DNA from: Phycisphaerae bacterium
GTDB taxonomy: Bacteria; Planctomycetota; Phycisphaerae; UBA1845; UTPLA1
NCBI GenBank assembly: GCA_030432035.1
Contig: JAUIHO010000028.1
Location: forward strand, 1-33,432
Length of the DNA: 33,432 nt
Reading direction: 5' to 3'
Shown here: positions 1 to 33,046 of the stretch, piece after piece
Position numbering within the stretch: position 1 is the first letter of the stretch
Layout of the letters: every line of letters starts with the position of its first letter
Position numbers and translations under genes: made by a program
Notes under the pieces: model-generated
Told to the model about the DNA's origin: nothing
Seen by the model: the letters and a program-made list of their open reading frames with translations, nothing else
Database searches by the model: none

Positions 1-737
1 CCTTCAATCGGAGTTCCAAATTCAATTTCCGCATCCGTGGACGACTGAATAATCTGACCTGCGTTCTCAATACGCCTGCGTAGCGATAGCCGCCCCGACT
101 GCACCTCGAGAATGCCGGTGTTATTCAATGAATCGATTTCACTTATTCCTTGGCTTCGAATCGTTCCGGAATTGAAGATATCGCTTGAATCGTTTCCATC
201 GATCAGTTGACCATCCAACTCGATCACCCCGGTATTGTTTATCGTGGCCGCAAAAAACTTCAGTGAGCCGCCAGGAGGAACAAATTCGATAACGCCGCCA
301 TTATCCACATGGGCACCGCCACTCAAGGTTGACATAGGCATGACTGACGCAACCTCGATGCGACCGTTATTTGTGAGGGTGGGGCACGAGAGATTTTCTC
401 CAACGAAACGAAACGTGCCAGCTGGTTCAATCAACATCGAATTGATCTGAGTCGCCACCTGATCGACCGTTCCCGTGGGAATAATCACATCGTCACCAAC
501 GCCGGGAAATGCAACGTCCCCACAACCACTGCGCCCCCAATTGTTCAGCGACAGCGGCGTGTTGTTCCCGACATCGCAAATTTCACCTTCGCAGACACCA
601 AACCAGGTCGGGCTCGGACACTGCGGCGACCAAGTGAATACGTCGGCAGGAGCTAGCGATGCTCCGGCAGAAAATACAAACATGTAAATAATGCAGTTTC
701 TTATGCATCTGAATATTCGTCGACAAGACAAAGTCAT
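1..737 (-). CDS. Secreted repeat protein, N-terminal part (tandem paralogue of the 827-3781 gene)
   Basis: The reading frame is open from an ATG at 737 to the left edge with no stop, so about 245 N-terminal residues are present. AAAGG lies about 9 nt before the ATG. The protein opens with a short basic and hydrophobic signal-like segment (residues 1-31). A block starting DVFTWSPQCPSPTWF follows and matches the neighbouring gene at 52 of 53 residues, including four cysteines. After the block the sequence is divergent but of the same kind: Gly/Asn-rich turns with recurring NNTG or FNSG steps, as in parallel beta-helix surface proteins. It lies 89 bp downstream of its paralogue with no visible terminator, so the two are probably co-transcribed. 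Function is not recognised; a surface adhesin or matrix protein is an inference. Whether it also ends in a dockerin module lies outside the window. Confidence 0.8.
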   Translation of the reverse strand, partial: MTLSCRRIFRCIRNCIIYMFVFSAGASLAPADVFTWSPQCPSPTWFGVCEGEICDVGNNTPLSLNNWGRSGCGDVAFPGVGDDVIIPTGTVDQVATQINSMLIEPAGTFRFVGENLSCPTLTNNGRIEVASVMPMSTLSGGAHVDNGGVIEFVPPGGSLKFFAATINNTGVIELDGQLIDGNDSSDIFNSGTIRSQGISEIDSLNNTGILEVQSGRLSLRRRIENAGQIIQSSTDAEIEFGTPIE

Positions 738-826
738 ATCTACAACTACCTTTCACTACCGTTGCGACGACTAAGTTATGAGCGCCGACGCATACCGTGA
801 TTCACCAAAACGAACATCTAACGGAG

Positions 827-3781
827 TTAAGGCACCAACGCCTCTATAAACGCTGGAATATCCGCACCATTCAACGCATCATCCGCATTCATATCCGCAC
901 GGCCCGCATCGCAAATCGGAATCTCAAACGCATACGCATCGCGATCGATCAGCGCCGTGACGAAGCCTGTGATGTCGTCGGTATCCACCCTGCGGTCGCA
1001 ATTCATATCGCCTAGCAACTGTTGGCCATCGCCTGCAACGATGGTAATAGAGTGTGTGTTAAGGGTAGAGCTTTGTTCGATGGTCAGACCGGGCGGGAAG
1101 TTCACCAGCACCACATTATCAAATCGACCTTCCGCCGAACTCAAAGAGACGTTCAGAATCTCATAGGTCATCCCCGGCTGCGGCACAAAGCCGTCACGAA
1201 TAACCACGCGTAAAGCGCCCCAATCCTGAAGACCGCCGCCAGCGATGAACCCAAACTCACCGTTGACGGTAACCCGATCGAAATTCCCGCTTTCGGGCGG
1301 GCCTGCCAATTCGATTTCAAAGCCCGCCGTGGTGCCCGGCATGTTGCCGAGATAGCCGTTGACCGTCAGCTCGCCAATGGGCGAACCGGGTGTGATAACG
1401 CCGTTGTCATTTACGATGGCACCGTTAATGGTGCCACCGCCGCCAAGGGTGCCTCCGACCACTTCGAGGTCAAGTGATTGCTCTGCGGGATGACTTTCAA
1501 CAAACGTCACCTCGGCGCCTTCCGCCACTTCAAATTGGCCGCCCACAAGTTGCGACCTGAAGACCACCGGATTACCCGTTTCGACCACGAACCTTCCAGT
1601 ATTGCGCAATAGGCCAACTAAACTGTCACCGGTCGTGCGACATATAAATCGCCCGCTGTTAAAGACGCGAGTTGTCGCCCCTATACCAGTGCAACTCGAG
1701 CGATCCCCTGACAAGATAAACTCGCCGGTGTTCTCCAGTAATCCAGCCGTCGCAACGTTATAGACCAACCGATCTTCATTGGTCATGATGCCGTGGTTTC
1801 GGATTGGGACCATAAAGGTAGCAGTCGGCGGAAAGGCCCCGTGAGCGTCAATCGAAAAAGTGATCCTCCCATCGGGCCCATTTGTCAACGGCCCCAAGCT
1901 TGAAAAAATAGAGGACCCAGCGATCGACTCCCACCGAACGCCCTCCCCACCTACATTGAACTCAACCCCTCCGGCATCACTTTGAACCGGATGACCGAGT
2001 GGCAAAAGAAATTGACCGCCCGTCGCGACAAACCCGTTGATGACACCCCCAACCTTCACGATCCCCCCCGTAGAGGGATTCGCATCACCGACAAATACCG
2101 ACGCCCCCGGTTTGACATCAATAAAACCGGCCGCGGTACCGAAGAGCCCCTGCGTCACTTCAAACGGACCTTCGTCGATATTGGCAAGCCCCGAGTTGAT
2201 CAACCTAAACATGCTGCCGTTCAGATCACCTAGCTTGGTAAACACCCCTTCATTATTCATGTCCGACAAGGTCAGGTTCGATGCAGTCGCGTGCATGTTA
2301 TACACACCGGTATTTCTAAATTCGCCCGGATTGCTAAACGGCGTAAACAGAACGTTTCCACCATTGTGGTTGAACGTGCCCGCATTCAAAAAATTTACCA
2401 ACGACATCGAGGTCGGGGAAGTGCCATCCTTCACCCACGTACTGCCCACTCCGTTGGCAATGCCTTCATTGGGCGGCTGCCCGCCAAAAAAGCTAACGCC
2501 AACCACCGCACCATTGCCCGATGCGTTCATAGTGAATCCTTCTGGCGGAACGGTCACAGAAACCCCAAGAACCGAAAAGCTACCGTCGTTTCCTACGTTT
2601 AGTTGCCCGGCCAACGAGTTGGGTCGAACTTCAAGGGATGCGCCCGGGCTCACGTTTACCGTCGACGCGTTCGTTGCCGCCACGCCGCCGGTTACCACCA
2701 AACTCCCTTCTTCGACCCGCAATTCACCGGCCTGCAAGTCCAACTCGGAATCGAACATCACCGTCGATGGCGACACCTTGCGCATTTGACCGCTGTTGCG
2801 CGTGATATCTCCATCGATCGTTCCTTGCACGATCCGATACTCGCCGCGATTGTCGAAGTCGCTGCGCAGAGCCGGACTGTTGCGAAACGAGTCGTCGATG
2901 AAGAGGCCTTCGTTGATAAACGGTCCGAGCAACCCACCACCGTCTTCAGTGTTGTGCATGGTGCTCGTTGCCTTATTGACGAGCGTTGATCCGGGCTGAA
3001 CCTGAATCACGCCGCCCGTCATCTCCAGCCCGTTACCCCGGAAATCAAAGGTGCCGCCCGGTGCCAATACGGTCATGGCCGTTGTGAGCGTCGAGTTAGG
3101 GTCTTGAAACTGAAAGGCGCCGGCGACTTCGGCAACGAGATCGCCCGTAAAGCGGGTGGTGCCAAAGAATGATGCGGTGGTGCCAGCCGCCACCTGCATC
3201 GTGCCGCCGTTCACATCCAGATTGCCCGTCAATGCGAGTGAGCCCTGCTCCACATCGATATGCCCTGAATGCGTCAGGTCGCCGATTGCGACATCGCCGA
3301 TGCAGCGAATCAGCCCGCTGTTAAAAATGTCGGGATAATCTCCCGGCGACGGCAATATGGTCAGGTTGTCCCTCAGGGTAAGTTCTCCCCCGTTGGTGAA
3401 TGCGGTAAATTCAAACATCGTGCCAATCGGTTGATCCACGACACCATTCGCCCCGATCGACACCATCCCTACCGCAGTATCGACCAGCGAGACCATGCCG
3501 TCGTCGATCACGACATCGTCACCAACGCCGGGAAACGCAACATCCCCACAACCACTGCGTCCCCAATTGTTTAGTGACAGTGGCGTGCTGTTCCCGACAT
3601 CGCAAATCTCACCCTCGCATACACCAAACCATGTCGGGCTCGGACACTGCGGCGACCAAGTGAAGACATCGGCCATTGCGCGATCAACGGTCAACCCAAG
3701 GATCGCGAGGACGACGGCGTGAGCAGCTACTGAAACAAACATGTTCATCCGAAAATGAACAGACAAACGACTCGAATTCAT
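827..3781 (-). CDS. Large secreted repeat protein with C-terminal dockerin/EF-hand-like module
   Basis: The product is 984 aa from the ATG at 3781. That start has GGAG about 7 nt upstream and is preferred to an in-frame TTG at 3799. Residues 1-37 look like a signal peptide, with likely cleavage after AMA before DVFTW. Residues 38-90 are the four-cysteine block shared with the downstream paralogue. The long middle (about 90-900) is low in Cys and rich in Gly, Asn and Val, with recurrent steps such as NNEG, FNAG, FNSG and LENTG every 20-30 residues; this fits a beta-helix or autotransporter-like passenger. The C-terminus (about 924-984) has two EF-hand-like halves, GDMNCDRRVDTDD and ADMNADDALNGAD, resembling the type I dockerin-like modules common in Planctomycetota secreted proteins. 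Probably a calcium-binding surface or extracellular structural protein; ligand unknown. Confidence 0.85.
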   Translation of the reverse strand: MNSSRLSVHFRMNMFVSVAAHAVVLAILGLTVDRAMADVFTWSPQCPSPTWFGVCEGEICDVGNSTPLSLNNWGRSGCGDVAFPGVGDDVVIDDGMVSLVDTAVGMVSIGANGVVDQPIGTMFEFTAFTNGGELTLRDNLTILPSPGDYPDIFNSGLIRCIGDVAIGDLTHSGHIDVEQGSLALTGNLDVNGGTMQVAAGTTASFFGTTRFTGDLVAEVAGAFQFQDPNSTLTTAMTVLAPGGTFDFRGNGLEMTGGVIQVQPGSTLVNKATSTMHNTEDGGGLLGPFINEGLFIDDSFRNSPALRSDFDNRGEYRIVQGTIDGDITRNSGQMRKVSPSTVMFDSELDLQAGELRVEEGSLVVTGGVAATNASTVNVSPGASLEVRPNSLAGQLNVGNDGSFSVLGVSVTVPPEGFTMNASGNGAVVGVSFFGGQPPNEGIANGVGSTWVKDGTSPTSMSLVNFLNAGTFNHNGGNVLFTPFSNPGEFRNTGVYNMHATASNLTLSDMNNEGVFTKLGDLNGSMFRLINSGLANIDEGPFEVTQGLFGTAAGFIDVKPGASVFVGDANPSTGGIVKVGGVINGFVATGGQFLLPLGHPVQSDAGGVEFNVGGEGVRWESIAGSSIFSSLGPLTNGPDGRITFSIDAHGAFPPTATFMVPIRNHGIMTNEDRLVYNVATAGLLENTGEFILSGDRSSCTGIGATTRVFNSGRFICRTTGDSLVGLLRNTGRFVVETGNPVVFRSQLVGGQFEVAEGAEVTFVESHPAEQSLDLEVVGGTLGGGGTINGAIVNDNGVITPGSPIGELTVNGYLGNMPGTTAGFEIELAGPPESGNFDRVTVNGEFGFIAGGGLQDWGALRVVIRDGFVPQPGMTYEILNVSLSSAEGRFDNVVLVNFPPGLTIEQSSTLNTHSITIVAGDGQQLLGDMNCDRRVDTDDITGFVTALIDRDAYAFEIPICDAGRADMNADDALNGADIPAFIEALVP

Positions 3782-4102
3782 GGATGACTCCGATGCCAAT
3801 TTGCGGGACTACGTTCCGCTTCAATGTTTGGGATAACGCCTTCGCCGCGTAACGAGACTTCCCTTCCCAAGAATTCTAACCGGCTGGGCTGGTTAAAAAC
3901 AACATTTAACACGAAGGGCCACGTCAACGGGCATTTCACGATATAAACGGTCATTAAGGTGTCGTGAATCGGCCCGGTCAAAGTCAATCGATAGAAGAGT
4001 GAATTTCGGCGACGCAGGCTCGTCTGTTGGAGTGATTGAGATATCAGTTAGAGAGGTAACAATTTTTCGACCGCTGCAAACGATTGGTTCGCCCAACGTT
4101 TA
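3782..4102. other. Intergenic region between GDP-fucose synthase and the dockerin protein gene
   Basis: No credible gene lies here. The left part holds a candidate minus-strand promoter for the dockerin gene (3873-3902), overlapped by an imperfect dyad, TAACC-N9-GGTTA, at about 3877-3895. I see no intrinsic terminator after the GDP-fucose synthase stop at 4103. Confidence 0.5.
3873..3902 (-). promoter_or_regulatory. Candidate sigma-70-type promoter for the dockerin protein gene
   Basis: Read on the minus strand, TTGTTT (3902-3897) is followed after 18 nt by TAGAAT (3878-3873). The -10 matches the consensus at five of six positions and the -35 is weaker. The start codon is about 90 nt further on. 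Confidence 0.35.
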
Positions 4103-23245: not shown

Positions 23246-26200
23246 TTACGGCGCGAGGTTGCTGCTCCCTAAACGGCTGCTTGCCAACGAACCGCCGCGC
23301 TTGTCGGGATCGTGAAAGTATAGGAAGCGGCGCAGCGCGTCCATGCCGTGACAAGTCGAGCATACGTTGGGTGCGTTAAACGGGCGTAACATTAAGCGCT
23401 GTGCCCGCCGTTCGGCGTCGCTCAATCCAGCCAGCTTTTGCTGGCCATCCTCTGGGATCTGGCCGTGCGGCGCGTGACAGGTGCGACAGGTGATATTCCC
23501 CGTGTCGGAGCGTTCACCTTTTGCATCGAACAGCGGCAAATAGCCCGCGGAATCGGGCTGATTAACTTGCCGCATCGGCACGACCGGGTGCGACGCCACG
23601 CGTGCCGGTGAAGCGGGCCCACCACTGCGATGGCAACTGGTGCATCTTGCATCGTTGCCCGACATCGTTTTCGGATCACCCACGTCGGCAGTTGCCCACC
23701 ATTCGCGCGGCGCCATCAGACGATCGTCCACCAACGCCGGGTTGGCGTGTACCGAATGGCACGGCAAGCACGAATCGGCATCGAGACCGGCATGCGTTAA
23801 CGCCGCTGCGCCGTGCCCGGTATAAGCAACGGCACTCATGTCGGTATGACATTTGAAACACAAACTGGTCGCCGTGGCATTGGCATCCACCCGCAACAAC
23901 GAACCCGCGCGGCTCGGCGGCGCGTGCGGATCGTGACAAGTGCGACAGCCGATCGTCTCGCCTGCGATATCGCGGTGGGTCGGTAGCCCGTGCGCCACTT
24001 GCTGAACCTTCACGCTGCGCGGATGCATCATGGCCATATGACTCGTCGCATCCCAATCGGCATCGGTATGACAGGCAATGCACACATCATCGCCCATCGG
24101 CCCCGTGCGACCGCAGGGTTCCACGCGCATCCCTTGCTGTTTGGTCGTGCTGTGCGGTCGGTGACAAGATAGACAGCGATCGTCGGTAAAAGCGGCGAGT
24201 TCGGGCCAAGCACTACGATTGCGCGACGCGTCGTGACCGCCGCCGACCAATTGCGCCTGATCGGCATGGCAATCCGAACAGATCTCGGCAGGTTGACCGC
24301 GCATGAAATGGTCGAACGCATTGGTATGCGGATCGTGGCAGTCGAGACACGAGTCGCCGGGATGGTTGCGCTCGCCCAACAGTTTACTGCTCGCGCACCG
24401 ATCGGCCTGATGACACGTGATGCACTGGCCCGCCTTGTCGAATGTGAACGTTTCTGGCGTACGGGCGGTTTGATGGAACATATGACAACTGCTACACGGA
24501 CCGCCCGACGTCGGCGTGACGCCGGCTTGATTCGCCACGTTTGGACGCGAGCGGCGTAGGTCATGCGTTGTCTGCGTCACGGCTTGCATGTCGGTATGAC
24601 AACCGATGCACAACGCGCCGTCGGCCATATCCACCGGCAGCAAGTTCTGTTTGCCTTTGGCGTGATGCATATCATGACACGAGAGGCAAATCAGTTGATC
24701 GTTCTCACCCAAACGCATGCCAAGCTTCGTAACGGCTTGCTGTTGTTGTGCATTTAAATTCGGCGTTAACGGGTGCGACGCGTGCATACCATCTGCAAAT
24801 GACTCGGGGCTAAGCGCAGCGTGGCAAGTCGTGCACAACGTGTTTTTAGTAGCAGGCAGCACCAGCAGGTTTTCGTATGGCGAACCGTGAGACGTGTGGC
24901 ATACGACGCAGGTGACTTCGGTCGTATCTCGTTCCAAGCGTGCGCCGGCGGCCACAAGCTCCGCGGGAACATCCACCTTCATCGAACCCAACGGGTGCGA
25001 GCCATGCGCGATGCCACCGTGGCTCGGCGCGTGGCAACTGACGCACAGCGAACCTACAGATTGGTCGGTCCGCAGAAAGACCGTGTTGGCGAAGTCGGCG
25101 TTGAATTGCCCGGAGGTATGTGCCGAGTGACATGTGCGGCATTTGATCGTGCCATTCACTAACGGCAACGCGTCGGAAACCTTCATGTCGGCGGGCGGTT
25201 CGATACCGGTGCGGTGACCGTGATCCTGCCAGACGCGGGCGCGAGAATCGCCAACAGAACCGTCATGGCAACTAAGGCACATCTTGCTGCGGCTAACGAT
25301 GGGGTCGTCTTTTATCTCTGGCAGCGGGTCGACCAGCGTCTTGCCCGCCGTGTCGTTATAACTTTCAAACCATTCGATATGACAGATCGTGCAACTGCGC
25401 GCCCGGCGACCTACCAATTGCGGACGCGGCCCCGAATGCGTATCGCGAACGGGAGCCGGCTCGGTTTCGCGCGTAATATCGATTTTCCGAACGCGATTGG
25501 CTTGTAATTCCGTCACATAAAGTTGCCCGTCGGCGTCGAAATCGATCCCCATGCAATGGTCGAAACGCATAACCTTGCCGTCGGCGTTACGAAGCGCATC
25601 CAGATACTGACCGTCGGTGCGGAAGATTTGAATGGCGCCGAGCGTTGCGTCGGCAACCCAAGCCAAGCCCTCGCCATCGATCGCGATGCCTGTCGGCCGA
25701 TAGAGTTCTCCGAATTCGATCCCGTAGCGCGAAATGGTGCGTCGCGGCGCGCCGTCTGCGGAGAAGATACTAATACGCGCGTTGATAGATTCGACGACGT
25801 ACGCGTCGCCCCGCTCGTCGAACGCCAACGTCAATGGATAGTTAAGCTGCCCGACCGATTCGCCGTAGCGTCCGACAACCGTCTGCGCCTTTGAGGCCAG
25901 ATTGACACGCAATAAGCGGTGATGATCGTTGTCGACCAACCACGCATTGGCTCCACTCGCGTCGATCGCGACATCGGTAATATCGACGAATGTATTTTTG
26001 CCTGAGGGCGGCGGCGCGACATCCATGCCGAGCGAACCATCGGGCATGCGTTGTATCGCCCGACCGTTGCCTGTATCTGCGATCCACAGCGACCCCGACG
26101 GCCCCACCGTCACGCCGACCGGTCGCGATAGCGTGTACGCGCCGACTTGCTCGATGACCTCGGCAAATCTTCCATCAGCATCAAACACAACAACACGGTC

Positions 26201-26389
26201 GTTGACGCCGTCGGCGACGAACACCCTGCCATCGGGCCCAACCGCGACATCGGTGGGCATGCGCATCGGCGAAGTAACGCCCTGCTTGTATTCCACCGAC
26301 ACCTTGCCGACGAACGGTGTACCTTGACCGTAGGCCGTCGCTATTGGGCAGGCCATCAGGATGAACAAGAGCAGTGGGCGCGACATCAT
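23246..26389 (-). CDS. NHL-propeller fused to a 20-heme c-type cytochrome
   Basis: The product is 1047 aa. A signal peptide (1-21, ending TAYG-QG) directs export. Residues about 44-306 contain six NHL repeats (such as PTDVAVGPDGRVFVAD, PVGVTVGPSGSLWIAD and PTGIAIDGEGLAWVAD), enough for a complete six-bladed beta-propeller. From residue 333 to 1014 there are 20 CxxCH motifs, many in the doubled-CxxCH pattern, where a CxxCH-x-x-H is followed about 30-40 residues later by another CxxCH. Additional histidines (DPH, SVH, PPH) are probable distal ligands. There is no C-terminal membrane segment. The gene starts 3 bp after the triheme gene's stop, so it is the third cistron of an electron-transfer operon. 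The propeller may dock to a partner, a surface or a polysaccharide; its ligand is unknown. The ATG at 26386 is an equally possible start. Confidence 0.92.
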   Translation of the reverse strand: MMSRPLLLFILMACPIATAYGQGTPFVGKVSVEYKQGVTSPMRMPTDVAVGPDGRVFVADGVNDRVVVFDADGRFAEVIEQVGAYTLSRPVGVTVGPSGSLWIADTGNGRAIQRMPDGSLGMDVAPPPSGKNTFVDITDVAIDASGANAWLVDNDHHRLLRVNLASKAQTVVGRYGESVGQLNYPLTLAFDERGDAYVVESINARISIFSADGAPRRTISRYGIEFGELYRPTGIAIDGEGLAWVADATLGAIQIFRTDGQYLDALRNADGKVMRFDHCMGIDFDADGQLYVTELQANRVRKIDITRETEPAPVRDTHSGPRPQLVGRRARSCTICHIEWFESYNDTAGKTLVDPLPEIKDDPIVSRSKMCLSCHDGSVGDSRARVWQDHGHRTGIEPPADMKVSDALPLVNGTIKCRTCHSAHTSGQFNADFANTVFLRTDQSVGSLCVSCHAPSHGGIAHGSHPLGSMKVDVPAELVAAGARLERDTTEVTCVVCHTSHGSPYENLLVLPATKNTLCTTCHAALSPESFADGMHASHPLTPNLNAQQQQAVTKLGMRLGENDQLICLSCHDMHHAKGKQNLLPVDMADGALCIGCHTDMQAVTQTTHDLRRSRPNVANQAGVTPTSGGPCSSCHMFHQTARTPETFTFDKAGQCITCHQADRCASSKLLGERNHPGDSCLDCHDPHTNAFDHFMRGQPAEICSDCHADQAQLVGGGHDASRNRSAWPELAAFTDDRCLSCHRPHSTTKQQGMRVEPCGRTGPMGDDVCIACHTDADWDATSHMAMMHPRSVKVQQVAHGLPTHRDIAGETIGCRTCHDPHAPPSRAGSLLRVDANATATSLCFKCHTDMSAVAYTGHGAAALTHAGLDADSCLPCHSVHANPALVDDRLMAPREWWATADVGDPKTMSGNDARCTSCHRSGGPASPARVASHPVVPMRQVNQPDSAGYLPLFDAKGERSDTGNITCRTCHAPHGQIPEDGQQKLAGLSDAERRAQRLMLRPFNAPNVCSTCHGMDALRRFLYFHDPDKRGGSLASSRLGSSNLAP

Positions 26390-26392
26390 CGA

Positions 26393-27505
26393 TCAGTTAT
26401 CAGATTTGGGCGTGATGAATTGCGGCATCTCAAACGGTCGCCCCGCATCGATATTCTCAATCATCTCGAAAACGATCGGATCGCTCAACGCGTCGATACG
26501 AGCGGTCGGATACCCCAACTGCGACAAGGGCACCAACGAGGCGTCGGCGCTGTGGCACTCGGTACATCGGTACGCACTGTCGCGGCGCAGCGGATGAATT
26601 TTTTCAAGCAGTTGGTCGCGTTGTTCAGGTGCGAGATCGTCACCCTGTGCAAGGAATTTAGCCACGTCATCGGAAGTATCGGGATGGGCGAGAATCGGCA
26701 CACCGTCTTCCGCCTTCAACGCCAACTTCGCGCCGTATTCACCGCGGAAATATCGCGGAATAATCGTCTGCGTTTCATCGAGCAACCGTTGATAGGCCTT
26801 ACTGCCGGGGCGCACGGCCTCAAAGTGCTCGACCAGTTGCTCCAAGGCGCTCGCGTTGGGTAAGTCCTTGGACGTGCGCTGAATGAGCGCAACCAATTCC
26901 CGATGTTGTTCCTTTAAGGCGCTCGCTTCAGTATCTTCACGATTGATTTCGGTAAGCCGTTGACACAGTCTGAGAATTGCCGGGGGTGCTTGAGCCGCGC
27001 CCGTATCCAAATCGTACCACGTCATCTTCAGCGGATGATCATCCGTTGCCATATGACACACGCCGCAATGAATGCTGGTGGCATGCATGTTGAGGAAGGC
27101 GCGGACGGCCTTATTTTTTGAATGCGGCAACGGCCCATGACAACCGCTGCGCGAACAATCGTTGAAACGGTCCGGCTCAATCCAACTATCGACGCGGTGG
27201 TAATGCGCGGGCGGCACGCGCGGCGTTTCCGCAGCGGTAATCGCTTTCCAATCGGCGCGCTCGGTGGCCAGCAATTCGGGCTCCATACGTCTCGGAATCC
27301 CGACAATCTGCTCCGGCGTTTGCGTCGGGACCAACAAGGAGCGCACGAGGTATCGAATCGACAGGAACGTTAGCCAGCAAATAAACAGCAGCAGCGCCAG
27401 CCCGTACAACCGCGGGATCGCAACGCGGATCATCCGCGCCGTACCGCGCAAGCCGCGCCAAACCAGGTCGACGAGTGAGTGGATGGAAAACTTCGATTTC
27501 GTCAT
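26393..27505 (-). CDS. Membrane-anchored triheme c-type cytochrome
   Basis: The product is 370 aa. A single N-terminal transmembrane segment (about 33-58, LYGLALLLFICWLTFLSI) follows a basic N-terminus, so the body should lie in the periplasm, anchored to the inner membrane. Haem sites: an atypical CX4CH at 117-123 (CSRSGCH), CxxCH at 147-151 (CGVCH) and CxxCH at 314-318 (CTECH). Between the second and third sites is about 160 residues of helical, charged sequence without haem motifs. It does not match NapC/NirT closely. It lies 6 bp after the stop of the cytochrome b561 fusion gene and 3 bp before the 20-heme gene, so it probably relays electrons between them. It has no Shine-Dalgarno; translation is presumably coupled. 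Confidence 0.85.
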   Translation of the reverse strand: MTKSKFSIHSLVDLVWRGLRGTARMIRVAIPRLYGLALLLFICWLTFLSIRYLVRSLLVPTQTPEQIVGIPRRMEPELLATERADWKAITAAETPRVPPAHYHRVDSWIEPDRFNDCSRSGCHGPLPHSKNKAVRAFLNMHATSIHCGVCHMATDDHPLKMTWYDLDTGAAQAPPAILRLCQRLTEINREDTEASALKEQHRELVALIQRTSKDLPNASALEQLVEHFEAVRPGSKAYQRLLDETQTIIPRYFRGEYGAKLALKAEDGVPILAHPDTSDDVAKFLAQGDDLAPEQRDQLLEKIHPLRRDSAYRCTECHSADASLVPLSQLGYPTARIDALSDPIVFEMIENIDAGRPFEMPQFITPKSDN

Positions 27506-27511
27506 TGCGTG

Positions 27512-29407
27512 TTACGTTGCCGCTTTGGTGATACCCAATTCTGACGCCACTTCGTCGACCAATTCGCTGTGTTCCTCGGCCAACTTGTCCACCGGCGTTT
27601 CGCCACTAAGCGTGGCACGCGACAGCGGAAACACCTTCGGCGCAAAGACCACGTTATATATGTGCAAGATACCCACATGAATCACCGCCAAAAAGGCTTC
27701 ATACGTATGGGCGATGGTTGCCAGATTCAATGCACGACCGCTAAAGAACTGCGAACTCAATTGCATGCCCCACAGCAAGATGCCGGTGATGCCGAGCAAC
27801 ACCGTCCCCCAAAACACGCCCAGATACTCGAACTTCTCCGTCGGGCTGAAGCGACCAAACGTGGGACGATCTTTTTTTAGAAACAGCAGGTACAGCAACA
27901 AGTGCAGCGTCTTCTTAGCATCTTCGACCGTTATCCACATCGGCATGTCGTTCCAAGTTTGCCACGCGCCGGGCCGCGTGCCGTCTGCCCGTGGTGTACG
28001 CCATTTGCGCCAGAAGTCGAGCAAAACCACCACCACGTGCTGCGCAAAGCCCACGATCAGCACCACACCGCTCCAATGGTGAATGTGCCGGGCGAGGCTG
28101 AGCCCGCCAAACATGTTGATCAACGCCGAGGCCCAATCGCGATCGGCAAACTTCATCGGAAATCCGGTCAACACCAATAGCGTAAACGATATCGCCAGCA
28201 GCCAATGCTCGATGCGCTGCTTCACCGTAAAGCGGGTAAGTCTGCGTCGTCCTTCCGGCGTGGCCAACACGCGCCGCGCGAGCGCTTTTTCCTCGTCGGC
28301 ATCGTGGTGGCCGCGGCCAATTATAATCTGCACCAAATCGAGCAAGACCAACAACGCCGCCGGCCCGAATGTCAATAACGTCGCAATGATAAAGAAGGCT
28401 GCCAGCAGGAACTCGGCAGAGCCGCCCGCTGTGGGGATATCGAGATGCACCGCCGTCGAAGCGATTTGCAAATCCGCCCCCGGATGACATTGCACGCTAC
28501 GGCAAGAATCGGCGACATGCGCCACATTGACAGACGAATTCGGATTCTCCGGCCCCAACATCAGGTGGGCGTTTTCGCCCGGCATGACGTGGCAAGACAA
28601 ACAATCGGCTGTCGAGTTATCGCCCAAGAGCGCCGCTTTGCCGTGGAAGCTACGCACAAAGCTCGCAACGGCGTCGGACATGTCGTGTTGTTCGTTGATG
28701 AGCGGATCGCTATGGCAAACCGCACAGACTTGCGCCATATCGAGCGAAGGACGGGCCGGTTGCAAGCGCGATGCGATATGGTTGACGTAATATCGAATAT
28801 CGATGGGAACCGTTTGCGAGTGGCAACTATCGCAACGATCAAACGTGCGATTGTTGACGTGTGACATGCCGGGGATCACCGCGATCGGATCGCGGAACAT
28901 CGGTTCGTCGTGACAGTAAAGACAGTTGGATTGCCCATCATGCAACAACGGCCCGCCGGTAAAGTTGAGGTCGTTCAGAACCTTGGACGAGTGAGCGCTG
29001 TCATCGAGCGAGCGCGCCGCCGACTCGTGACTAAATATTCGCTCGAGACCGCCGGGGTCGCTCAGGTGACACGTTTGCGTGCAGTTCACCGGCGTCGTGG
29101 GCTGGTGTGGAACGACGCTGACTTCGGACGCGGTATGACAATCGGTGCATGCCAATCGTGCGTGCGGCCCTTTGGCATGGTGGCCGTACTCGGGATCGAC
29201 AAAGTAAAGTTTGAATTCGTCGGATTCCCGATCGACGCGCCCCAGCCCACGGTACTGGTGGCACATCAGACAATTGTCGGGATCGTCGGCATACACAAAC
29301 CCAGCACATGCCAGAATAGCAACACAAATCAACCGCCCCGCAAGTCGCTCACGGATTCGCCTCGAAGCCATGTTGCGGAAGCCGTATGCAACAAGGCCAT
29401 TTCGCAT
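27512..29407 (-). CDS. Octaheme cytochrome c / cytochrome b561-like fusion (CbcL-like layout)
   Basis: The product is 631 aa from the ATG at 29407, chosen because GAGGGG lies just upstream; an ATG at 29452 extends it by 15 residues without a better site. Residues about 13-40 form the export signal. The periplasmic part (46-308) holds eight haem sites: six CxxCH, one CX3CH at 109-114 (CTQTCH) and one CX4CH at 302-308 (CRSVQCH). A first transmembrane segment (about 332-365) is followed by a cytochrome b561/HydB-type domain (395-590) with four more segments. Its histidines, in IEHWLLAISF, RHIHHWSG, FAQHVVV and VIHVGILHIYN, can hold two b haems. The order multiheme c then membrane b matches Geobacter CbcL, an inner-membrane quinol oxidoreductase. 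By analogy it would exchange electrons with the quinone pool. First gene of the operon. Confidence 0.9.
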   Translation of the reverse strand: MRNGLVAYGFRNMASRRIRERLAGRLICVAILACAGFVYADDPDNCLMCHQYRGLGRVDRESDEFKLYFVDPEYGHHAKGPHARLACTDCHTASEVSVVPHQPTTPVNCTQTCHLSDPGGLERIFSHESAARSLDDSAHSSKVLNDLNFTGGPLLHDGQSNCLYCHDEPMFRDPIAVIPGMSHVNNRTFDRCDSCHSQTVPIDIRYYVNHIASRLQPARPSLDMAQVCAVCHSDPLINEQHDMSDAVASFVRSFHGKAALLGDNSTADCLSCHVMPGENAHLMLGPENPNSSVNVAHVADSCRSVQCHPGADLQIASTAVHLDIPTAGGSAEFLLAAFFIIATLLTFGPAALLVLLDLVQIIIGRGHHDADEEKALARRVLATPEGRRRLTRFTVKQRIEHWLLAISFTLLVLTGFPMKFADRDWASALINMFGGLSLARHIHHWSGVVLIVGFAQHVVVVLLDFWRKWRTPRADGTRPGAWQTWNDMPMWITVEDAKKTLHLLLYLLFLKKDRPTFGRFSPTEKFEYLGVFWGTVLLGITGILLWGMQLSSQFFSGRALNLATIAHTYEAFLAVIHVGILHIYNVVFAPKVFPLSRATLSGETPVDKLAEEHSELVDEVASELGITKAAT

Positions 29408-29532
29408 GCGCCCCTCTTCGGAATTACTGATCGTCGCGTTACGGTCGGTCATGTCTGGGTCATCGGAAGAAACGTTCCCTTACTGCAACCGCGATCTTAT
29501 CCCGGAAACGGTTGCCTGACTAACCGAATGAG

Positions 29533-29569
29533 GCGAGTAATTCACCACAATCCGCGGGGAATTACCCGC
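29533..29569. promoter_or_regulatory. Inverted repeat upstream of the leftward cytochrome operon
   Basis: GCGAGTAATTC and GAATTACCCGC are an 11-bp dyad with one mismatch and a 15-nt spacer. It lies 126 bp before the start of the octaheme gene and could be an operator. There is no T-tract. Confidence 0.4.
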
Positions 29570-29774
29570 TGATGGTCGCCATTCAGATGACGTCAGTTGC
29601 GATGGCCCAGAATATTTTTTCTGCACTGAAGTAATGCAGAAAAGCCTCGCGCCGAGAAGTCCATTCATTGCTCACCGAAAACCTACACAACTACGCCGGA
29701 TATTCGCGGCTAAATCAGCACCTGTGGAGAGTCTATCGCCGCCCCCAAGAAAACAGCCGACCAAACCGACGACC

Positions 29775-29800
29775 CTCTGTGGAATTATCCTGTCACAGAG
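29775..29800. promoter_or_regulatory. Candidate upstream activator site for the sigma-54 promoter
   Basis: CTCTGTG and CACAGAG form a perfect 7-bp dyad with a 12-nt spacer. Its centre is about 120 bp before the predicted start site at about 29907, the usual distance for a sigma-54 activator binding site. Confidence 0.45.
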
Positions 29801-29879
29801 AATTTTCCCGCAGCAAAACCTCGCACTTCAGCCAGCCAGTTTGGCTCGTCGTTATGAGTTGTGCGTTTAAAGACAAGCA

Positions 29880-29896
29880 TTGGCACGACGTTTGCA
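29880..29896 (+). promoter_or_regulatory. Sigma-54 (RpoN) promoter of the nonaheme cytochrome gene
   Basis: TTGGCACG-ACGT-TTGCA matches the published consensus YTGGCACGrNNNTTGCW at every specified position. The invariant GG (29882-29883) and GC (29894-29895) are exactly 10 nt apart. Transcription would start near 29907, giving a leader of about 247 nt before the ATG at 30154. Confidence 0.75.
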
Positions 29897-30153
29897 CCGT
29901 CGCATCAACATGCAACCGCAGCAGAGTTACAATCCATGTCGCACCAAACACATGCGAATAAAACCGCAACGAAAAAATCGCATAACAAGTTGCGATTACG
30001 GCTTGTCAATTCGCATTGAAGTTGGTGAAATGAAACTCAGAAAACATCGGGAACTTCGATGATTCGTTCGGCCAACAACAACACATCTCTCTCGCGTTTC
30101 GAAACGCATGCAGTCGCGCTCAACGCGCACCGAAAGGACTGGTGGAGGTAGTC

Positions 30154-31590
30154 ATGAACACTTCACGGAAGACATTCATATCAAAACATGCCACGGCGTT
30201 CTCTTTGCTGGCAGTCATGGTCGTTACGTTCGGCATGATCGGTGCCGAGTGTCCGCTGGGCACGCAGATGCCGACGCCCACTGGTAACGACGGCTTGACC
30301 GGTCGCTTCGTCGGCTCCGAGCGATGTGCCGAGTGTCACTCGAACATTCACGACAACTGGATGTCGACGCTGCACAGCGGTGCGTTGGAAACGTTGGAAG
30401 CAATCGGCCAAGGTGAGAACGATACTTGTCTCGCCTGTCACACGGTCGGTTTCGGTGAAGAAGGCGGATTCGTCGATCGTGCAACGACCAACGCCTTGGC
30501 TGGCGTCGGTTGCGAAGCGTGTCACGGCCCGTCGGGTGACCACGCCAACAACGTTGCCGACGAAAGCTTGCGACCGCCGAAAAACATCGCGGCGAGCATT
30601 TGTGGCGACTGTCATACCGGCGAGCGACATCCAAACTTCGAAGAATGGGAAATGTCAGGCCATGCAGCCAAGAGCATCTCAGATCGCTTTGAGGCTGGCG
30701 GTTTCTACTTGAATTCTTGCGGCAAATGTCACTCGGGCGATTTCTATTACATGGCAATCCTCGATGGCCAAACAGTAGAAAATGACGCCCTGATGGGTGT
30801 GGCAGTGGCCGATCAAAATGGTATCACTTGTGCCGTCTGCCACGATCCGCACCAACGCACAGGCAACTTCGCAGTCGAGCCGGATGACGGTCGCGATTAT
30901 CAATTGCGATTCCCCGAGGTGGCCAGCCCGATTCCGACCAATACGATCGACGCAACCACCAACGCCGCTCGATTCAACATCTGCGGTCAGTGCCACCATG
31001 GACGCGGTCGGACGTGGGAAGCCACTGATCGCGGCCCGCACCACAGCGTTCAGTCGAACATTTTCGTCGGCGAAATGGCAATGCCGGATGCAGACGATGA
31101 AGTCACGCCGCTGGTACCGAGCACTTTCTCTGTGCACGCATTGGCAACCGAACAGTGTGCCACGTGCCATATGTACCGTCAGGATTTCCAAGATGAATTT
31201 GCACCGGCGATCGCTGGTCACAGCATGGTGGTCAACAACGCCGGGTGTGCTGCAAGTGGTTGTCACCCGACGGTCGACGCTGCTGTCGCAGCACAGGCGA
31301 CGCTGCAAACCGAAATCGAGGATCGCCTCGAAGATATCACGACGCGTTTGAACGGGTTCTCGATGACCTACACCGAAGGCGGCGCCTTAAGTGGTGCGGA
31401 AGCTTGGGAATACTCGGCTACTGGTGGTCCGTCCGAGGCCGACCAAGATGAGATGCCCGACAACATCAAGAAGATTCGCTTCTTGTTGAGGTACATCGAA
31501 GGTGACGGCAGCCTTGGCATTCACAATCCGGACTATGTCCGCCGTATGCTAGACGAAGCCGAAGACCTGCTCGATGCTGAGTCGCTCTAG
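30154..31590 (+). CDS. Exported nonaheme c-type cytochrome (cytochrome c554-like)
   Basis: The product is 478 aa from the ATG at 30154, with GGAGG 5 nt upstream. An N-terminal signal (about 12-31) ends in MIGAEC; Cys33 resembles a lipidation site but Glu at -1 is not lipobox-like, so a lipoprotein fate is doubtful. Nine haem sites: eight CxxCH from residue 58 (CAECH, CLACH, CEACH, CGDCH, CGKCH, CAVCH, CGQCH, CATCH) and one CX4CH (CAASGCH). The arrangement CxxCH, MSTLHSGA, CLACHTVG, CEACHGPSGDH resembles the cytochrome c554-type fold. The last roughly 110 residues lack haem motifs and look helical. It is followed by an intrinsic terminator and preceded by the sigma-54 promoter. It is likely a periplasmic or surface electron carrier or terminal reductase; the substrate is unknown. 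Confidence 0.9.
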   Translation: MNTSRKTFISKHATAFSLLAVMVVTFGMIGAECPLGTQMPTPTGNDGLTGRFVGSERCAECHSNIHDNWMSTLHSGALETLEAIGQGENDTCLACHTVGFGEEGGFVDRATTNALAGVGCEACHGPSGDHANNVADESLRPPKNIAASICGDCHTGERHPNFEEWEMSGHAAKSISDRFEAGGFYLNSCGKCHSGDFYYMAILDGQTVENDALMGVAVADQNGITCAVCHDPHQRTGNFAVEPDDGRDYQLRFPEVASPIPTNTIDATTNAARFNICGQCHHGRGRTWEATDRGPHHSVQSNIFVGEMAMPDADDEVTPLVPSTFSVHALATEQCATCHMYRQDFQDEFAPAIAGHSMVVNNAGCAASGCHPTVDAAVAAQATLQTEIEDRLEDITTRLNGFSMTYTEGGALSGAEAWEYSATGGPSEADQDEMPDNIKKIRFLLRYIEGDGSLGIHNPDYVRRMLDEAEDLLDAESL

Positions 31591-31630: not shown

Positions 31631-31667
31631 GAAGCGCGTTTTCACACGAAAGCGCGCTTCTTTTTTT
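31631..31667 (+). terminator. Rho-independent terminator of the nonaheme cytochrome gene
   Basis: GAAGCGCGTTTTC pairs with GAAAGCGCGCTTC (13 bp, one T-G wobble) around ACAC, followed by seven T. The T-tract directly abuts the promoter of the next gene. Confidence 0.9.
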
Positions 31668-31687: not shown

Positions 31688-33046
31688 ATGAACCAACCAA
31701 CGCCTTTAAAAAACTCGGTCACGCAAAATAGACAACTTGTTCGGCCTCGAATTTGGGTCGGTGCGGGTATGTCGATCATAGGATGTTTGTTCGGCGGCTT
31801 CGTGATGACGGGGGCACAGTGCGATACGCTTTCACCCACCGGCTCGTTCGGGATTTACTTCAATTCGACCGACCCGACCAATGACGACGCGACGTACATC
31901 GGTTCCGCCGCATGTAATTCCTGTCACCCGGGTTATGCGGCAGACCACCTTCTGCACGGTCATGCGTCCGCGCTCACGGGCATCGAAGGCCAACCACCAG
32001 CCTACCCCGCTGAAGCGTCGCAGGCCGGTGTGCCGAACGCACCGAATGGGTTTGACTTCAACGACATCGCCTATGTCATCGGCGGTCACAACAAAGGTGC
32101 CTTGTTCGTCGACACCGATGGTTTCCTACTAACGACGGGTGAGACCGGCGCACTGGCACAGTGGAATCTCGACTTCCCTGCCAACGGCACGGCAGCCGGC
32201 TTCGCCGAGTTCGCCGCCGACCAAGTCGATCCGCTTTCGTTCGACTTCGTTCAGTTCGCCGCGTTAACGACTGGCCCCCAAGCGCAGGATTCCGAGAACC
32301 CCAGCTTTCAAGACAACCGCCCCGGCATGGCGGGCACCTTCGCCGAGGCCGGCGTGCAATGCGAAGCCTGCCACGGCCCCGGTTCCAACCACGCGCCGAA
32401 TCCCGGTGCGCGCAATCTCTTCGTCGACCCGACAGGCGCGAACTCGTGCAACCAATGTCACGTGCAACCATTCGGCTCCGATGGTGCGACGATCCCCGCG
32501 TCCGATGGCTTCATCGCGCCGCAAGCGCAATACGCCGAGATGCGTGCCAGCGGCGGCCATGCCGAGTTTCGTTGTACGTTCTGCCACGACCCGCACGTTT
32601 CAACGACGTACGACCGTCCGAACGCCATTCGCAACGAATGCACGGCTTGCCATACCGATATCAACATGGCATTGCACGACGGGATGGTCTTCACGCGCGG
32701 CGACTACGTTGAGGAACTCTCGTGCGTGAGTTGCCACATGCCTTTTGCCGGCAAGCGATTCTCATCGGCAAACGCGGACGTCGTCGGCGATCTCGGGCGA
32801 ATGGGTGATACACGCTCTCACATATTCCGCATCAACACCGACGAAGCGACGTTTGACGCGATGTTCAACGAAGCGGGTAACGAAGTGGCGCGCGACGAGT
32901 TGGATCGCGCCGCCGTCACGCTCGATTTCGTCTGCGCCCGCTGTCACAACGGCATCGGCGCCTTCAACATCAGCTTGGAAGGACTTTCGGGCGTTGCGGT
33001 CCGCATGCATGGAAACCTTGCGACGGACGAGGACGCGGCGCCGTAG
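31688..33046 (+). CDS. Exported heptaheme c-type cytochrome
   Basis: The product is 452 aa. No Shine-Dalgarno precedes the ATG, consistent with a near-leaderless message from the TATACT element. An export signal (about 20-44) ends in MTGAQC, a sequence close to the MIGAEC of the preceding cytochrome. Seven CxxCH motifs are spread over the protein: CNSCH at 76-80, then CEACH, CNQCH, CTFCH, CTACH, CVSCH and CARCH. Between the first and second haem is about 140 residues without haem motifs, including a segment (YVIGGHNKGALFVDTDGFLL) also typical of multihaem proteins in this style. CEACHGPGSNHAPN parallels CEACHGPSGDHANN in the neighbour, so the two are probably distant paralogues. Partner and substrate unknown. 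Confidence 0.88.
   Translation: MNQPTPLKNSVTQNRQLVRPRIWVGAGMSIIGCLFGGFVMTGAQCDTLSPTGSFGIYFNSTDPTNDDATYIGSAACNSCHPGYAADHLLHGHASALTGIEGQPPAYPAEASQAGVPNAPNGFDFNDIAYVIGGHNKGALFVDTDGFLLTTGETGALAQWNLDFPANGTAAGFAEFAADQVDPLSFDFVQFAALTTGPQAQDSENPSFQDNRPGMAGTFAEAGVQCEACHGPGSNHAPNPGARNLFVDPTGANSCNQCHVQPFGSDGATIPASDGFIAPQAQYAEMRASGGHAEFRCTFCHDPHVSTTYDRPNAIRNECTACHTDINMALHDGMVFTRGDYVEELSCVSCHMPFAGKRFSSANADVVGDLGRMGDTRSHIFRINTDEATFDAMFNEAGNEVARDELDRAAVTLDFVCARCHNGIGAFNISLEGLSGVAVRMHGNLATDEDAAP

Follow-up and report, generated by a model that had tools for sequence, protein, structure and literature searches.

The cytochrome cluster

The window, meaning the whole 33,432-nucleotide stretch of DNA analysed here, comes from the 5.1-Mb genome of a Phycisphaerae bacterium and carries two divergent operons of multiheme cytochromes separated by a gap of 701 bp. 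The plus-strand gene next to the gap (30154..31590) encodes a nine-heme c-type cytochrome of 478 aa, starts with ATG at 30154 and is preceded by GGAGG at 30144-30148. The term nonaheme used in the original prediction holds if a CX4CH site, which is invariant across 22 orthologues, is counted beside the eight CXXCH motifs, but fails on CXXCH alone. A conserved neighbour on the same strand encodes a second multiheme cytochrome with seven CXXCH motifs (31688..33046). Between the two genes lies a strong intrinsic terminator on the plus strand (31631..31660) with a 13-bp stem and T7, which suggests either attenuation or a separate promoter for the second gene; its end and the ATG of that gene are 27 nt apart.

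The minus-strand operon encodes a multiheme cytochrome fused to a cytochrome b561-type membrane domain (27512..29452), a small multiheme protein (26393..27505) and an NHL-propeller protein with 20 CXXCH motifs (23246..26389), the latter two being conserved with the cluster, and also contains a possible lipoprotein. The cluster is kept in Phycisphaerae-like Planctomycetota, the nearest named genome being the planctomycete MAG ECT2AJA-110-A (CP030884). Multiheme cytochromes are numerous in uncultured planctomycetes, and we know of no roles assigned to them. Elsewhere in the window, at 3-3799 on the minus strand, two adjacent secreted-type proteins have near-identical N-terminal starts (ADVFTWSPQCPSPTWFGVCEGEICDVGN...) and are likely a tandem duplication; one of them ends with a dockerin-like DMNCD...DADM region.

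The sigma-54 box and its conservation

The gap holds a sigma-54 -24/-12 box, TTGGCACG-ACGT-TTGCA, at 29880..29896 on the plus strand, where TTGGCACGACGTTTGCA agrees with the sigma-54 consensus at 13/13 positions and has exact GG-N10-GC spacing. The original prediction had the sequence and coordinates of this full-consensus box right, as well as its orientation and its setting in a non-coding divergent region, between the minus-strand gene at 27512-29452 and the plus-strand ATG at 30154. Its estimate of about 0.002 chance matches in the window for TTGGCACG-N4-TTGCW (TTGGCACGN4TTGCW), counted on both strands, comes out at the same value with the real base composition. The box is the sole zero-mismatch match to TGGCACGNNNNTTGCW within the whole window and is an ordinary member of the -24/-12 class, differing from it in nothing. 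From sigma-54 promoter geometry, transcription is predicted to start at 29907 on the plus strand, 12 nt after the GC of the -12 element, which would give a 5' leader of 247 nt (29907..30153). The leader is strongly conserved with the sister genome G002 over 29934-30153, reaching 95-100% over 30050-30169, and is far better conserved than the promoter DNA. Within it, the sister retains both the start and the stop of a short frame at 29936-30019 (MSHQTHANK...). An Rfam search of the window and three relatives gave no match, and the predicted fold of the leader has nothing unusual (z -0.62).

Across the genome TTGGCACGN4TTGCW is present three times against 0.31 expected: in the window, 5' of flgB (contig C289) and 5' of a groES/groEL pair (contig C231). 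The C289 match is 140 bp upstream of flgB and adjoins a gene for a flagellar-type enhancer-binding protein (bEBP); a position upstream of flgB is typical for sigma-54. On C231 of G000 a 13/13 box, TTGGCACGAACGTTGCT, lies at L186 5681-5697, about 620 bp upstream of groES/groEL. The looser pattern TGGCACN5TTGCW shows no enrichment genome-wide, with seven matches against eight for the reversed control, so that the motif alone proves little and single matches have to be judged by their conservation.

Conservation was assessed in 30 orthologues, one per genome (48-88% identity, plus the window itself), by scanning up to 600 bp upstream on the coding strand for boxes with GG-N10-GC, with 300 rounds of dinucleotide shuffles as the null. 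Boxes matching at least 11/13 positions occur in 9/30 orthologues against 0.26 expected (shuffle maximum 2 in 300 rounds), and at least 10/13 in 13 of the 30 against 1.8 expected, the orthologues not being independent of each other. The expectation in the original prediction that the box is conserved upstream of orthologues is thus borne out well above chance, but not for every member: about half of the orthologues are without a convincing box, including that of G001, the third species of the genus. The reverse strands of a wider set of 48 yield zero boxes at 11 or more positions, and verrucomicrobial and other distant cytochrome homologues have no box above controls. Among genomes of the same family, a box of at least 9/13 stands before the orthologue or the leading paralogue in 10/11 (G000, G002, G003, G004, G007, G009, G010, G014, G015 and G016); that of G010 matches at 9/13 and that of G016 precedes the leading paralogue. 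The sister G002 has its box, TCGGCATGAATCTTGCA, at the same distance although the surrounding DNA is only 35-42% identical, and conservation spans three families, far above shuffles. The box very probably acts as a true sigma-54 promoter of the nine-heme cytochrome gene. The literature searched contained no description of a planctomycete multiheme cytochrome under sigma-54 control.

A probable palindromic enhancer

An EM de novo search of the 220 bp upstream of 15 orthologue boxes returns a palindrome, TGCGgAAatTTcCGCA (TGCGgaa-tt-ttcCGCA; LL 58-72 against 27-36 in shuffles), which sits 54-178 bp upstream of the boxes, as expected of an enhancer. The same 16-mer, TGCGgaAatTtcCGCA, emerges when 41 regions upstream of globin-kinase operons are searched de novo and independently, without any cytochrome sequences (LL 88.7 against 28-30 in shuffles). 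The matrix trained on kinase regions gives the cytochrome regions a score of 161.5 against 84.8 +/- 10.7, with 0/500 shuffles as high, and 129.7 against 67.2 +/- 9.6 when one region per genus is used. The cytochrome regions also outscore 109 control intergenic regions (p = 3e-5, or 4e-4 with one per genus), and three of the best four controls are the cytochrome cluster's own. In both the kinase and the cytochrome sets TGCG-N8-CGCA is enriched solely at the N8 spacing (11 against 0.9 and 4 against 0.1), and the same spacing count recovers the sigma-54 box (GCA-N7-TGC) 38 times against 6.8 in the kinase regions. Composites of enhancer and box exceed their reversed-pattern controls (35 against 15, 38 against 12 and 33 against 8), counts that are flattered because the reversed pattern also strips the sigma-54 box enrichment. 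A hand-made palindrome, TGYGGAAWWTTCCRCA, scored against its consensus, was significant in few genomes only and was replaced by the de novo search. When two mismatches were allowed, the palindrome was not enriched in the bacterium's own genome, where it scored 50 strand-hits and the reversed control 80.

In the window the proposed enhancer site (UAS) is AGAGAATTTTCCCGCA at 29797..29812, an imperfect copy of TGCGgaa-tt-ttcCGCA 83 bp upstream of the box. Over 29496-29933 a single run of at least 9 nt is identical with G002, and the site overlaps this 18-nt block (29798-29815). Taken alone, this proximal site scores low against the matrix from the kinase regions (7.7 bits; per-region P = 0.07). 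A second UAS-like site, TGTGGAATTATCCTGT at 29778..29793, is 19 bp from the first, and tandem sites 20-21 bp apart are also found in G009 and G010. Within the intergenic region the matrix gives its highest score, 10.7 bits, to CGGGGAATTACCCGCT (29555..29570), a weak and uncertain UAS-like site 325 bp upstream of the box. The enhancer that accompanies sigma-54 promoters is present in the orthologue set, and its copy in the window is imperfect and conserved in the sister.

The globin-coupled kinase and its bEBP

The genome contains one rpoN, a gene present in 94/101 genomes of the order, and eight bEBP genes with strong PF00158 matches, so that both checks proposed in the original prediction, for rpoN and for sigma-54 activators, come out in its favour. 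In G042 the search for composites found a perfect palindrome together with a box at the 5' end of the gene for a globin-coupled kinase, which directed attention to this kinase. In the bacterium's own genome a soluble globin-coupled histidine kinase is encoded on contig C184 (810-2024), directly followed by a bEBP of the NtrC family (2024-3382), which possesses a receiver, an AAA+ sigma-54 interaction domain and a Fis-type HTH. The sigma-54 contact loop reads GAFTDA, a GAFTGA variant, in 39/39 bEBP orthologues that are partners of globin kinases. Protoglobin matches are present in 79/101 relatives, and the bEBP stands directly behind the globin kinase in 38/40 relatives examined. The kinase occurs in 15/15 box-positive and 9/15 box-negative genomes (Fisher p = 0.017), an association to which genome completeness may contribute and in which box-negative genomes with the kinase exist. 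Upstream of the bacterium's own kinase operon there is a weak palindrome only (9.9 bits).

Since the palindrome is common to the kinase/bEBP operon and the cytochrome promoters, this pair is the candidate activator, and it is rather likely that it activates the cytochrome genes. The original prediction of an activator sensing a specific signal is right in outline, with the shared palindrome pointing to the globin-coupled pair. Two further bEBPs were considered and set aside: one on C275, with its own downstream box, has no enhancer palindrome there, and one in G036, found through a composite site (L138/L190), shows about 40% identity to several of the bacterium's own bEBPs and has no clear orthologue. 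In the L190 cluster (G036 contig C117) a Cache-domain kinase and a bEBP are joined by Hdr-like genes and by a receiver protein that has a GcvH-like stretch; a sigma-54 box and an enhancer-like palindrome lie within the cluster.

The strongest competitor accepts the sigma-54 cytochrome promoter and assigns it to another of the eight bEBPs, such as that on C82, a GAF-domain protein with a recognition helix (SRDNLRYR) similar to that of the C184 protein (SRDQLRYR); the imperfect enhancer in the window also favours such an assignment. It is nevertheless unlikely, because the independent motif search places the palindrome upstream of the globin-kinase/bEBP operon itself and bEBPs commonly autoregulate, whereas the 13 kb surrounding the C82 gene hold no palindrome of at least 12/14. 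A lesser chance is given to the palindrome being the site of a regulator other than a bEBP, either a repressor or an FNR-like protein, that co-occurs with sigma-54 respiratory promoters, as 16-bp palindromes are typical of many regulators and the distance to the box varies between 54 and 178 bp; yet this variable distance, the tandem copies 20-21 bp apart and the location at a bEBP operon are all enhancer traits, and a repressor site would be expected closer to the transcription start. The least probable reading treats the box as fortuitous or vestigial and has the gene transcribed from a sigma-70-type promoter, e.g. the 9/12 site TCAACA-17-TACAAT (29905-29933) that overlaps the predicted start. 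In its favour, looser box patterns are no commoner than the reversed pattern and the box is missing in about half of the orthologues. Against it stand the conservation of the box across three families and in the diverged DNA of the sister, the linked enhancer motif, a frequency of sigma-70-like sites close to that of shuffled sequence (2 against 1.1) and the absence of the named site from the sister alignment.

Proposed mechanism and regulon

The whole analysis is computational, and by this means the box, its conservation, the presence of rpoN and bEBPs and the shared enhancer motif are observed. The best explanation as a whole, which we consider probable, is a sigma-54 promoter for the cytochrome that is switched by the globin-kinase/bEBP pair of C184. 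It is proposed that RpoN-polymerase would form a closed complex on the -24/-12 elements at 29880-29896, while an NtrC-type bEBP would occupy the palindromic enhancer some 80-100 bp upstream (29797-29812 and 29778-29793) and, with ATP, open the promoter for transcription from near 29907. The bEBP would most likely be that of C184 2024-3382, directly 3' of the soluble globin-coupled histidine kinase. This operon may itself be autoregulated, since in relatives it is preceded by the same enhancer and by sigma-54 boxes, which there also precede genes for hydrogenase maturation and 2-oxoacid:ferredoxin oxidoreductase. The cytochromes would in this case be induced on demand, as the original prediction supposed.

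The globin domain of the C184 kinase aligns with that of AfGcHK over 155 residues (E 1e-25), is followed by HisKA/HATPase domains and keeps Tyr and His at the AfGcHK positions, which we take to be the distal Tyr and the proximal haem-ligand His. Because this protoglobin domain resembles that of an oxygen sensor, the signal is on balance more likely oxygen than not, and these bacteria may make the nine-heme cytochrome in response to it.

Further candidate members of the regulon lie behind composites of enhancer and box in relatives. They include HypF/HypD genes (G010, G001 and G008), citrate synthase (G091), a gene for a CBS-domain protein divergent from the kinase and, in G013, a POR-type 2-oxoacid oxidoreductase with genes of oxidase type farther downstream; G016 also has a COX1-type gene, its box being 1.8 kb away. 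Two others are named from resemblance of sequence alone, a malic enzyme in G007 and in G056 a ResB-like protein. Near the kinase in the bacterium's own genome, a pyruvate:ferredoxin oxidoreductase gene on C184 carries a 12/13 box and, 72 bp upstream of the box, the enhancer-like CGCGGAAAACCCCGCA (L176 9823-9926). Some composites stand before unrelated secreted proteins or within genes, so that the list is one of candidates. There is an even prospect that an order-wide regulon exists in which a haem-globin kinase and its bEBP, acting through the new enhancer TGCGgaa-tt-ttcCGCA and sigma-54, let oxygen switch multiheme cytochromes, hydrogenase maturation, ferredoxin-linked oxidoreductases and terminal oxidase genes. 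If the link between the pair and the cytochromes is true, one conserved cytochrome cluster gains a named sensor, activator, enhancer and promoter, with oxygen as the suggested signal, and globin-kinase/sigma-54 control, seen in Myxococcus, extends to a second phylum with electron-transfer cytochromes as target. With enhancer and box as a motif pair, the regulon can be predicted for about 80 genomes.

Comparison with known systems

In Myxococcus xanthus the protoglobin kinase NmpU and the NtrC-like NmpR control an oxygen-utilisation regulon via sigma-54; the NmpRSTU system is autoregulated, a CBS-domain gene, a hemerythrin and a terminal oxidase are among its genes, and planctomycetes have been published as carrying NmpU/NmpT homologues (PMC6211767; PMC11841059). 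The planctomycete system described here is similar in its predicted combination of a protoglobin-domain kinase with an NtrC-like response regulator on sigma-54 promoters, in its apparent autoregulation, in the CBS-domain protein and hemerythrin genes nearby and in a candidate respiratory regulon that includes a terminal oxidase, a likeness in how the two systems would work. It differs in that kinase and bEBP are neighbours within a single operon and perhaps a direct pair, in that the targets include multiheme cytochromes and in its enhancer, which is TGCGgaa-tt-ttcCGCA as opposed to the NmpR consensus GCGCA-N5-TGCGC. The NmpR form was tried as the enhancer and rejected (GCA-N5-TGC 13 against 6.9 in kinase regions and 2 against 1.5 in cytochrome regions), the enriched form being TGCG-N8-CGCA. 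Given the different enhancer and a likeness of predicted working, the planctomycete system is not classed as NmpRSTU.

For NmpR, activity under hypoxia by way of a reciprocal kinase is reported (PMC6211767; PMC11841059), and for AfGcHK of Anaeromyxobacter sp. Fw109-5 (PDB 5ohe) activity with O2 (PMC8697598). By analogy with AfGcHK, which is more active with O2 bound, induction in air is predicted unless the polarity differs; set against the hypoxic action of NmpR, a direct kinase-bEBP pair may therefore respond in either direction, to low or to high oxygen. The planctomycete kinase shares with AfGcHK the architecture of a soluble protein with an N-terminal protoglobin domain followed by HisKA and HATPase, and differs from it in that its partner is the NtrC-type bEBP of the same operon.
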